Assembly (NCBI RefSeq): GCF_947241125.1
Contig: NZ_OX365700.1
Span: 3,752,001 to 3,816,000, forward strand
Source of the DNA: Nitrospira tepida
GTDB lineage: Bacteria > Nitrospirota > Nitrospiria > Nitrospirales > Nitrospiraceae
Length of the DNA stretch: 64,000 bases
Direction: 5' to 3'
Of this stretch, positions 17,746 through 63,910 are shown piece after piece. Numbering within the stretch: position 1 is the first letter of the stretch; each line of letters begins with the position of its first letter. The translations under genes were made by a program, and so were the position numbers. The notes under the pieces are model-generated. The model was given only the letters and a program-made list of their open reading frames with translations. It was not told the origin of the DNA and made no database searches.

Positions 17746-17983
17746 TTTTTCAGGCAAGTTGGTCTGAGGGCAGGTGTCTTGATTAGCCTAACAGCTCATG
17801 GCGAGCATCAGCTGTTGCTCCTTCCACTTGCCTACCCTCTACCATATCGGTGAGGTGGAAGGGCTGGCCCACGTGCGCGCCTCCAACGAGCACCGCCCGC
17901 TTTGATGAAACTACAACTGATTTTGTGTGCGCGTTGGGCGAGCACAGCGGCTAGTCCTTCTACCTCACCGTTCGGCATTATTC

Positions 17984-32400: not shown

Positions 32401-33135
32401 ATGTCAGCAAAAGTCGCCGCCATCCCGGGAGGAGCCAAGGGCATCGGAAGGGACATCGCGCTGGAACTGGCTTCGCAGGGCTGGCAGGTGGCCATCTGTT
32501 ATCGCAACAGCGAACAAGCGGCGAAGGCCACCTGCGACGAGATCGTCAAGCGCGGCGGCCAGGCCTTTTTGCTCCAAGCCGATGTGGCGCAGGTCGAGGC
32601 GGCGCGGAGGTTCGTGCAGGAGGTGGAGCAGCGCTGGGGCAGGATCGATGCGTTGATCCACTGCGCCGGTCCCTATCACCGGATCAAGCTGTTCGACGAG
32701 ACGCCGCAGGGCTGGAATGACATGTTCGCCGGCAACCTCCATTCCCTGTTCTATGTGGCGCAGGCAGCCGTGCCAGGCATGATCCAGCGCAAAAGCGGGC
32801 GGATCGTCACGTTCAGCATGGCCAACGCCGACCAGATGGTGTCGCAGCCGGACGTGACGGCCCACTATATCGCCAAGGCCGGGGTCCTGATCCTCACCCG
32901 TACGCTCGCCAAGCTGCTGGCGCCGCACGGGATCACCGTCAACGCCGTCTCGCCGGGCTTCATCGACTCCGGCAGCGCCCCGCCGGAGGAACTGGCCGGC
33001 ATGACCAAACGGATTCCCGCCGGCTACATCGGCCAGGTCGGCGACATCACAGCCGCCGTGCGCTACCTCCTCTCGGACGAAGCCCGGTACGTCAACGGTG
33101 CGAATCTGCAGATCAGCGGGGCCTGGGGAATATAA
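32401..33135 (+). CDS. SDR-family NAD(P)-dependent oxidoreductase (FabG-like)
   Basis: A 244-aa classical short-chain dehydrogenase. The cofactor motif reads PGGAKGIG instead of the usual TGGxxGIG, NAG is replaced by CAG in IHCAGPY, and the active-site YIAKAG is intact near residue 157. The C-terminal pattern with VNAVSPGFIDS and VNGANLQISGAWG matches 3-oxoacyl-ACP reductases. A GGAGG site sits 6 bases before the ATG. It closes the GT2-DUF2064-SDR run. The substrate is unknown; fatty acid synthesis is only one option. Confidence 0.88.
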   Translation: MSAKVAAIPGGAKGIGRDIALELASQGWQVAICYRNSEQAAKATCDEIVKRGGQAFLLQADVAQVEAARRFVQEVEQRWGRIDALIHCAGPYHRIKLFDETPQGWNDMFAGNLHSLFYVAQAAVPGMIQRKSGRIVTFSMANADQMVSQPDVTAHYIAKAGVLILTRTLAKLLAPHGITVNAVSPGFIDSGSAPPEELAGMTKRIPAGYIGQVGDITAAVRYLLSDEARYVNGANLQISGAWGI

Positions 33136-33659
33136 GGGGGGCAGGGCGCAGCAGGTCTGTCTCTTCACTCGCAGACCGCGCACCCACACGACCATCATAA
33201 TTTCTGGTGAAGGGCGGTGCCGGGGGACCTGTTGCTCACCTATTGCAACGGGTCGGGATGCGCGCAGTTGAGACAGGCCTGCGCACCCTGCTGGGAAGGC
33301 TGATGAAAGAAAATGCCGGTCGCGGAGCGTCAAGAAGGGGGTAGCGAGGCAGTATGGCCTGCCTGCTCGCAGAGGCCGCACCTCGGAAGGTGCTCCCTCC
33401 ACGCGCGCAGATGAACAAAGTCCGAACACCCCGCCTGGGAGCGCTGTTCCCCACCACACAGAGCCATAGCCTAGGGCACTTCTGACCGATCCATTCGGCC
33501 ACGCGGCTACAGTCTCTCTCCTCTACCACATCTCAGCAAATCTGCTAGGGTTTCGGCTATCGCTTGCGTGACAAGTCATCCCGATCCTCCCCTGGCCCAT
33601 ATTCTCGCGCAGAGGATCGTCTCGGCAGGGAATGAATGAAATGGAAAGGAGAGGGTCCC
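33136..33659. other. Gene-free 520-bp interval
   Basis: No convincing gene on either strand; open frames here have no family character or ribosome-binding site. It is GC-rich with several short palindromes, for example GAGGCCGCACCTC near 33375, a close match to GAGGCCGCGCCTC near 63386. A structured RNA is possible but not shown. Confidence 0.4.
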
Positions 33660-36313: not shown

Positions 36314-36811
36314 GTAACGCTAATTCTGCTTCAGGTTACCGGCACAAGCGAATGTGCTGCCAGATTCGCGCACACCAAACACACATATCATCTCCTACCC
36401 CTAATCCCGAACTTCGAAAGCCGTAGATGGTAGAACGGCGCCCGGCGCGGTGAGCCTCAAGCGCTTACCGCGCCGCCGTCGTCCCCACCCCATCGAGCCG
36501 CTTCGTCTCCCCAATCTCGGATGGAACGGATGCGCGGTGTGATCGCGCCATTGCGGACGCTGCCTATGCGGTAAGAAAGCAACGTATCGCGTGCGACGGC
36601 ATTGCGGCAGAACGCCGCAGCCTTAGAGGAGCAGGCGAGGAAAGGGCAAACGCATCCGACGGCCGTCTGTCTATTTCGCATGATGGCGCGACCGCACCCG
36701 CGCGCCGTTCGTCAGCCGAGACGACACTATTTCTTGAAGCGCGGGATCTGCGAGCACGAGAACACGAGAGGCGCCCATGTCCTCACCCCGAGTCCGATGC
36801 CGGACAAAAAA
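36314..36811. other. Gene-free 500-bp interval with hairpins
   Basis: No frame here looks coding. It contains a GC-rich hairpin at about 36444-36476 (GGCGCGGTGAG/CTTACCGCGCC). The segment is compositionally mixed and may be the remnant of decayed genes. It ends at the long terminator-like hairpin that follows grxD. Confidence 0.4.
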
Positions 36812-36906
36812 GGAGGGCGTCTGCCGAACTCTCGATTGCGCGCGTCGAACGAGCACATTCCGATCGTGCGCGTTTCGCGAGCAGGAGAGTTTGGCAGGCG
36901 CCCTCC
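36812..36906 (-). terminator. Long hairpin with T-run after grxD (family C, copy 1)
   Basis: Arms 36812-36833 and 36885-36906 are complementary over 22 bp (two G-U type mismatches). On the minus strand the second arm is followed directly by TTTTTT, the form of an intrinsic terminator for the glutaredoxin gene that ends 26 bp upstream. The 51-nt loop is far larger than in normal terminators, holds its own small hairpin, and matches the loop of a second element at 63449-63546 at 34 of 51 positions. Confidence 0.8.
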
Positions 36907-36932
36907 TCAAACTGTCTCTGCTGATTCGTTTC

Positions 36933-37256
36933 TTACTTTCCGAACGCCTTCTTCAGCAGCGGCTCGATCTCGCCCTTCTTCTCCATTGGGTCCAAAATAT
37001 CCGTATCCCCATAGAACTGTCCGTCGATGAAGACCTTGGGGAGGGTCGGCCAGTTGGTCATCCTGCTGAGGGCTTCGCGCTTCGCGGGATTTTGCAGCAC
37101 ATCGATGACTTCATAGGGGTACCCGTACCTGTCGAAGAATTGCATGGTCTCCCGCGTGAACCCGCACATGGGGAACTGCTTGGTGCCCTTGCCGTACACC
37201 AAGATCTTATGGGCTTTGATCTCGCGCTCGATTTCTTCTTGAATGGGGTCTGCCAT
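36933..37256 (-). CDS. grxD: Monothiol glutaredoxin, Grx4 family
   Basis: A 107-aa CGFS-type glutaredoxin with CGFT at residues 31-34, the cis-proline segment WPTLPKVFIDGQFYGDTDIL and the start IQEEIEREIKAHKILVYGKG. Grx4 proteins bind a bridging [2Fe-2S] cluster, often with BolA partners, and pass it on or sense iron. A BolA-family gene lies 180 bp upstream on the same strand, supporting that role. Confidence 0.95.
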   Translation of the reverse strand: MADPIQEEIEREIKAHKILVYGKGTKQFPMCGFTRETMQFFDRYGYPYEVIDVLQNPAKREALSRMTNWPTLPKVFIDGQFYGDTDILDPMEKKGEIEPLLKKAFGK

Positions 37257-37435: not shown

Positions 37436-37708
37436 TCACGTGATTCCCTTCCCAATCTGTTCTGTCCCTCCTATCTCCTCCGGCGTGGCGGCGGTCAATT
37501 CCAACGCATGGATGCGGCCGTCCTTGAGCGGCGCATCCAGCGCCTGGTAGACCATCCGGTGCCGATCCAACAGATTCTTTCCCGCAAAATGCCGGGAGAC
37601 GATCCGCACGATCAGGTGATCCATCGTTCCGGTCTTATCCGTGACCGTCACGGTCGCATCGGGCATCGCCCTGCGGACATAGTCGGTCAAGGTCTGGGTC
37701 GTAATCAT
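37436..37708 (-). CDS. BolA/IbaG-family protein
   Basis: A 90-aa protein of the BolA fold: DATVTVTDKTGTMDHLIVRIVS, then FAGKNLLDRHRMVYQALDAPL, with the conserved histidine region and KDGRIHALELTAATPEE at the end. BolA proteins form cluster-binding heterodimers with monothiol glutaredoxins, and Grx4 is the next gene downstream. Regulation by iron is likely from the family but no operator is visible. Confidence 0.92.
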   Translation of the reverse strand: MITTQTLTDYVRRAMPDATVTVTDKTGTMDHLIVRIVSRHFAGKNLLDRHRMVYQALDAPLKDGRIHALELTAATPEEIGGTEQIGKGIT

Positions 37709-63297: not shown

Positions 63298-63448
63298 GGC
63301 TTCCTCCAAGCTCGTTCGTTGTCTTTCCCTTGGAGAGCAGTCTGGTAGGATCCTCACCGCGCGCATCCCACGAAGGCTTTCTGAGGCCGCGCCTCGTGCG
63401 ACCACGGCTATCAATGCTCCTTCCAAGCTTGCTCGTTGTCTATTTCCC
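63298..63448. repeat. Degenerate direct repeats
   Basis: TCCAAGCTCGTTCGTTGTCT (63306) and TCCAAGCTTGCTCGTTGTCT (63422) are near-identical 20-mers about 116 bp apart. The interval holds palindromic GC-rich sequence such as GAGGCCGCGCCTC. They may be decayed copies of the hairpin family next to them. Confidence 0.45.
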
Positions 63449-63546
63449 AGGACGGGCACCCGCGCTGGTCCCCCTGCGGCCGTCGAGTGAGGCCCTTCCG
63501 AGGGCGCGCGCTCCGGGAGCACAGGACCAGTACGGGTGCCCGTCCT
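63449..63546 (-). repeat. Long inverted repeat, family C, copy 2
   Basis: Arms 63449-63471 and 63524-63546 are complementary at 21 of 23 positions (AGGACGGGCACCCG... against its inverse). The 52-nt loop carries GCCCT/AGGGC and aligns with the loop of the element at 36812 at 34 of 51 positions, though the arms are unrelated. It starts 4 bp after the stop of the minus-strand gene at 63551, where it would fold in the 3' end of that transcript. Confidence 0.75.
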
Positions 63547-63550
63547 CCCC

Positions 63551-63910
63551 TCATGTCTCCATCATCTCCAGCCTCGCATCAAACTCATGCCCACAGGCGG
63601 TGCAACGGATGCAGTCCGACTCGACCGTAAACTCATCGGACCTGATGCCCATCCCGCCGCAATCCGGACAGCGGGCCAGGTGGACCCTGCGATCATCCAC
63701 CGTCTCATATTGGACGCCGCGGAGGCAGTAGATCAGCTTCCCGTCCAGCAACCACGGCCGGCCTGCGTTATCGACGACGGGCAACACGAGGTAGTGATGG
63801 TTCACGTAGTCTTCGATCTCGCGCTGGCTCGTGAACCCGTCACGAATCAGCTTCCCTCCCACCGCCTCATACAGCGCGTGCCCTTTCACGATCGCCTTGG
63901 TCGGACCCAT
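63551..63910 (-). CDS. Hypothetical protein with C-terminal zinc ribbon
   Basis: A 119-aa protein. The first 70 residues are mixed alpha/beta (GGKLIRDGFTSQREIEDYVN, PWLLDGKLIYCLRG). The end has two CxxC pairs, ARCPDCGGMG and CIRCTACGHEFD, a zinc ribbon. ATG 63910 follows GGGAGGTGGG. No function is known; zinc ribbons often bind nucleic acids or proteins. Confidence 0.75.
   Translation of the reverse strand: MGPTKAIVKGHALYEAVGGKLIRDGFTSQREIEDYVNHHYLVLPVVDNAGRPWLLDGKLIYCLRGVQYETVDDRRVHLARCPDCGGMGIRSDEFTVESDCIRCTACGHEFDARLEMMET

Follow-up and report, generated by a model that had tools for sequence, protein, structure and literature searches.

Introduction

BOX-type modular repeats of bacterial genomes are short, non-coding, modular, nested, and lineage-specific. 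REP sequences are multi-copy extragenic hairpins, most of them located behind coding regions (PMC3733652); they occur in mosaics, and their recognition, in single-stranded form, is strand-specific (PMC8266576, PMC3733652). Recognition of a folded single strand is also known from the integron attC sites, where the bottom strand is used and the stem is conserved in its structure and not in its sequence (PMC8946536). In Nitrospira inopinata, two CALINs have been reported with IntegronFinder 2.0 (PMC9024848).

The element described here is a dispersed, Nitrospiraceae-specific hairpin of approximately 98 bp; literature searches did not turn up any account of a hairpin repeat in Nitrospira. It was encountered in a stretch of 64,000 nucleotides of Nitrospira tepida, in the following termed the window, which contains five clear copies (Table 1).

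Hairpins in the Window

The initial annotation had picked out two hairpins, at 36812 and 63449, with self-complementary arms around similar loops, each behind the stop codon of a minus-strand gene. Both are real; their 23-nt arms are 91% complementary and stand 51 and 52 nt apart, respectively. The likeness of the loops is above chance, with 34 of 51 positions matching ungapped as opposed to 19.0 +/- 1.9 in dinucleotide shuffles, where a value of 34 was reached in none of 10,000. The inner hairpins GCAC/GTGC and GCCC/GGGC, the T6 behind the first copy and the position after minus-strand stops were likewise found as described. That the arms are unrelated is true of the pair itself, which agrees at 10 of 23 positions and thus at chance level (9.4 in shuffled sequence); across many copies, however, arm families and compensatory changes are seen, and after these had appeared, with compensation in situ, the idea of the arms as unrelated captured sequence was dropped.

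The glutaredoxin encoded upstream of copy 1 shows up to 89% identity to proteins of Nitrospira metagenome-assembled genomes, and in two further genomes (L169, L181), elements also accompany the 119-amino acid gene that hosts copy 2. In some copies, an extra inner hairpin module, CCGGGGNACCCGTTGC..GCAACGGGTCGTGA, replaces or extends the apical part; it is located at 33220-33262 (+) of the window, at 2315361 and 1533347 of the same genome, and at two further loci (L017, L007).

Table 1: Element copies, host genes, and accompanying repeat in the window.
Feature	Position	Strand	Remarks
Copy 1	36811..36907	(-)	23-bp arms (36811-36833/36885-36907) and 51-nt core; 25 nt past grx4 stop; T6 next; 88.1 and 90.6 bits
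grx4, host gene upstream of copy 1	36933..37256	(-)	monothiol glutaredoxin, PF00462; stop at 36933
bolA, precedes grx4	37436-37708	(-)	PF01722
Copy 2	63449..63546	(-)	23-bp arms (63449-63471/63524-63546) and 52-nt core; 4 nt past stop codon; 92.6 bits
119-aa gene, host upstream of copy 2	63551..63910	(-)	stop at 63551; C-x2-C zinc-ribbon-like tail
Copy 3	17849..17969	(-)	apical region enlarged, 121 nt in total; 14 nt past stop codon; 55.1 and 63.1 bits
SDR-like gene, upstream of copy 4	32401-33135	(+)	copy 4 begins 4 nt past its stop
Copy 4	33140..33292	(+)	divergent core and extra inner hairpin CCGGGGGACCTGTTGC..GCAACGGGTCGGGA; 32.8 bits, E 2.7e-5
Copy 5	33344..33434	(+)	core good, arms decayed; directly downstream of copy 4 (array); 40.1 and 40.4 bits
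Degenerate copy	63339..63429	(-)	downstream of copy 2 (array); 22.4 bits, E 0.007
Companion repeat	63412..63439	(-)	sense GAGCAAGCTTGGAAGGAGCAT-type, near copy 2

Family and Distribution

Further copies were obtained by blastn of either of the two hairpins against their own genome (single contig, 4.73 Mb), the core matching better than the arms. Thirteen hand-collected copies were aligned without gaps over 98 columns, and from this seed alignment the covariance model R1 was built. The covariance search that the initial annotation had advised yielded at least about 32 distinct sense-strand copies in the own genome, in agreement with a second model, R2, and at least about 84 in a relative with a genome of 2.6 Mb (G009). 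Copy numbers range from approximately 0 to 84 per genome and are lower bounds, with the best 150 candidates of each genome scored. In a sample of Nitrospiraceae, copies were present in 73 out of 78 genomes. In a sample of the phylum, all 31 positive genomes belonged to this family, of which 32 members had been included, while none of 116 genomes from outside the Nitrospiraceae contained a copy. No match to the element was obtained in the viral contigs and plasmids searched, and neither of the two initial hairpins matched an Rfam family at the gathering threshold; with the second of the two thresholds applied, a sub-threshold match to the raiA-hairpin (E 0.71, within 36700-37000) was the only one. 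Overlap with predicted genes was seen for almost no copy. Between copies, identity is about 0.62 in the arms (0.56 in shuffled sequence) and 0.74-0.79 in the core; recent near-identical copies are absent from the own genome, where the best arm identity is 0.89.

Structure of the Element

Comparison of 114 distinct copies over 37 base pairs shows standard pairs in 91.6% of all pair cells and changes in both partners for 34 of the 37 pairs, with a covariation score of 0.71, compared with 0.20 for shuffled and about 0.1 for slid alignments. The view that the arms vary freely around a conserved core is borne out, in the form of a co-varying 23-bp stem which encloses a 52-nt core with almost invariant unpaired positions. 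The near-invariant positions of the core are for the most part unpaired, namely, TC and SC, which face each other twice, a bulged A, and the apical TCNGAA. Since it is the unpaired positions that are invariant, the pattern is the one expected of a folded single strand that is read via its loops and not of a double-stranded binding site; for the same reason, binding of a protein to the core is plausible. The two halves of the core, left and right, are similar to one another in the manner of direct repeats (GTGCTCG..GA..CGCGCA; for example, in 63449-63546), with an identity of 0.66 versus 0.58 in shuffled sequence.

Strand Preference of the Fold

If a hairpin functions as a fold of the sense strand, G.U wobbles are expected to outnumber A.C mismatches. 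On the gene-sense strand of 96 copies the reverse was found, namely, 162 A.C versus 46 G.U (approximately 3.5 : 1; p 2e-16, a value which overstates independence, as the copies are mutually related). The excess is seen in the arms (148 versus 42) and in the core (14 versus 4), in the own genome (51 versus 11), in G009 (59 versus 27) and in the other genomes (52 versus 8); counted by element, A.C predominates in 69 copies and G.U in 13. R1 had been built on the sense strand and should favour G.U, so that the test is a conservative one. Moreover, the complementary strand is predicted to be more stable in 78 of the 96 copies. Terminator-like T-tract hairpins from the same loci, taken as a control, gave 38 G.U versus 32 A.C, in a small set that includes overlapping and probably spurious hairpins.

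With the upstream gene on the opposite strand, the A.C excess persists (36 versus 6), and as it is found whichever way this gene runs, it does not arise from transcription. A mutational strand bias was considered as its cause and discarded, since the skew at 4-fold gene sites is about 0 and the A.C bias shows no flip with the direction of the neighbouring gene. The fold under selection is therefore apparently on the complementary strand, which suggests that only one DNA strand, the complement of the upstream gene's mRNA, has been selected to fold. The proposal of the initial annotation that the hairpin gives the upstream gene a functional RNA 3' end, read in the sense direction, is not supported by this mismatch pattern and by the predicted stabilities. 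With selection apparently on the opposite strand, a hairpin of single-stranded DNA (or an antisense RNA) is a better fit than a stabiliser of mRNA.

Position, Nesting, and Evolution at Fixed Sites

For analysis of the surroundings, gene calling in 3-kb loci around the 96 copies relied on a simple codon model. These copies are the best-scoring matches, and decayed ones may show other proportions. In 45 of the 96, the distance from a same-strand stop to the start of the element is at most 30 nt, mostly 0-8 nt; an opposite-strand stop within 30 nt of the element's end was seen in none. The fixed position and orientation behind stops noted for the first two hairpins thus extend to the family. TAA, TAG, and TGA are used equally upstream of the copies. 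In 22 of the 96 copies, the upstream gene has the opposite orientation. Thirteen are sandwiched by co-directional genes, including sucC-sucD, atpD-atpC, and purC-purS-purQ, as named by eye from the protein ends and the starts of the next genes.

Downstream of grx4, an element whose arms are related and co-vary is present in many Nitrospira genomes, in most of the orthologues with a T-tract behind it; other genomes have none at this site. One grx4 element (L121, 1842-1938) combines the left arm of one species' type with the right arm of another's; it pairs poorly and is possibly a recombinant. The sucC|sucD junction is empty, with 8 nt, in G029, G037, and G020; it holds homologous copies with compensated differences in G009, G041, G005, G027, and G036, and in G034, G025, and G035 this spot is occupied by elements of different types. 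Further genes, too, are followed by different element types in different genera. The sucC|sucD junction looks like an insertion hotspot. Other inserts of 300-850 nt are present at this junction in G024, G032, G011, G019, G002, and G008 (L241, L250, L259, L257, L246, and L249), with no full element seen there.

Nesting occurs in three loci (L167, L209, L221), in which a complete copy is located inside the apical loop of another one whose outer arms are still paired. Solo right halves follow many copies, with 25 in the same orientation versus 3 on the reverse strand. Behind 20 of the 96 copies, a companion repeat occurs within the next 80 nt; shuffles gave none. Its form GAGCAAGCTTGGARGGAGCATYATA holds the palindrome CAAGCTTG; its sense strand has AAGGAG, similar to an SD sequence, and the opposite strand a -10-like TATNAT. 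Other loci with this repeat are L171, L175, L169, L148, L146, L139, L151, and L194.

Proposed Mechanism and Alternatives

The data point to an undescribed, REP-like, and possibly mobile element. Based on the strand bias, which is intrinsic to the element, the nesting, the lineage-restricted and variable copy number, and the repeated arrival of different types at the same junctions, a non-autonomous, strand-specific mobile DNA hairpin is favoured as the likeliest mechanism, albeit tentatively. One strand, complementary to the mRNA of the upstream gene, would form a long stem, with no fixed sequence, topped by a structured core. The folded single strand would be recognised via its core loops by a putative single-strand-processing enzyme, either cellular or IS-encoded, and new copies would land in fixed orientation just past stop codons or inside the apical loop of a copy already in place. 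The settled hairpin would probably be co-transcribed and may protect or insulate the upstream mRNA; the grx4 copy, with the T-tract behind it, may terminate transcription. From the structure, strand, placement, and distribution of the copies, we infer the mobility itself, the enzyme, and that the folded molecule is single-stranded DNA and not RNA. RAYT (Y1 transposase) was tried as a candidate for this enzyme and rejected; none is present in the copy-rich genomes G009, G046, G059, G067, and G075, while G011, G022, G032, and G044 possess it and yielded no copies. Integron integrase was rejected as well, since it exceeds the cut-off in only 8 of 78 genomes, is lacking in most copy-rich ones, and does not track copy number. 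Somewhat more speculatively, the elements could form a new class of mobile single-stranded DNA hairpins that is independent of either enzyme, with a putative enzyme of its own that would read the conserved apical core of the folded bottom strand and place copies in a single orientation directly behind stops, including those in essential operons.

That neither enzyme accounts for the copies speaks against the mobile hairpin, as does the lack of recent near-identical copies in the own genome; target-site duplications were not found, in flanks too diverged to determine them. Compensation in situ at grx4 and sucCD implies long residence under structural constraint, unlike a mobile element that is dead on arrival, and the exact placement behind stop codons of essential operons would suit a resident function, too. 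The main rival is a resident intercistronic or 3'-UTR RNA module, whose core-bound protein would stabilise the upstream message or set the ratio of gene products within an operon. It explains the placement (a few nucleotides past stops, in fixed orientation, and between co-directional genes) and the compensatory evolution, the former better than the mobile hairpin does. It does not explain why the mRNA strand is depleted of G.U and enriched in A.C, even in copies without a same-strand upstream gene, and it has to cope with junctions that are empty in many genomes and with the copies whose upstream gene runs in the opposite direction; on balance, we consider it rather unlikely. An antisense regulatory RNA, a small structured transcript of the complementary strand whose end would abut the 3' end of the host gene, would account for the wobble-tolerant strand, and in several copies the downstream companion offers a -10-like TATNAT on that strand. 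Promoter-like sites toward the element are, however, not enriched (7.24 versus 7.42 in shuffled sequence), the companion accompanies only a minority of the copies, and some copies leave no space for a promoter except within the start of the following gene; this explanation is considered improbable.

An intrinsic terminator with an unusually large hairpin would agree with the location behind stop codons and with the T-tracts at copy 1 and most of its grx4 orthologues. Only 10 of the 96 copies, though, have four or more T within the 8 nt directly downstream, the 3' flanks are purine-rich (74% A+G), and a conserved core is unnecessary for termination. Termination as the general function is excluded by the missing T-tracts and by copies that lie within operons between essential co-transcribed genes, in line with the earlier view that this is no plain terminator; the likelihood given to this explanation is very small, and it may hold for the copy at grx4. 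The lowest probability of all is assigned to integron attC sites or decayed cassettes, whose bottom strand would be recombined by IntI, notwithstanding the shared stop-codon position, bottom-strand preference, and structure-only stems, and the CALINs of N. inopinata. The own genome encodes two integron-integrase-like proteins over the TIGR02249 cut-off (C1:2948499-2949434(-) and C1:4636485-4637291(+)), the former gene lying about 3 kb from elements at 2945517-2945696. Against attC stand the absence of R boxes (RYYYAAC...GTTRRRY) from all 96 copies, the conservation of the apex and not the base, the dispersal of copies beside core genes, and the lack of IntI in copy-rich genomes such as G009.

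Comparison with Known Systems

In its manner of working, the element comes closest to REP and attC, yet it has the diagnostic sequences of neither. With REP, REPIN, and BIME it has in common that it is multi-copy, extragenic, and palindromic; it differs in its length (98 nt versus 20-50 nt for REP), in having a free stem and a conserved apex, in a copy number that does not depend on Y1_Tnp genes, and in its strict same-strand location behind stops. Of the REP tags, GTAG is found within 12 nt before the palindrome in 7 of 96 copies and CGTC beside it in 1 of 96. The likeness to attC consists in the location behind stop codons, a bottom-strand fold as derived from the A.C/G.U asymmetry, and a stem conserved in structure, whereas R boxes are missing, the apex is conserved rather than the base, and the copies are dispersed, most carriers being devoid of an integrase. 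The element may account for attC-like calls in Nitrospira. Like MITE and BOX repeats it is short, non-coding, modular, nested, and lineage-specific, but, in contrast to MITEs, its terminal inverted repeats vary from copy to copy, and a parent IS was not found. With an intrinsic terminator it shares the GC-rich hairpin past the stop and, at grx4, the T-tract, while most copies are without such a tract, may lie inside operons, and possess a conserved core.

The element gives a clear and testable prediction as to the strand and occupies core operons of nitrifying bacteria. The putative enzyme, if found, would reveal a novel way in which folded single-stranded DNA is handled; without it, the family would still be a large natural set for the study of stop-codon hairpins. 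Among the dispersed hairpins described so far, REP keeps its stem and attC keeps its base, while the element of the Nitrospiraceae keeps its apex and lets the stem drift under the constraint of pairing alone.
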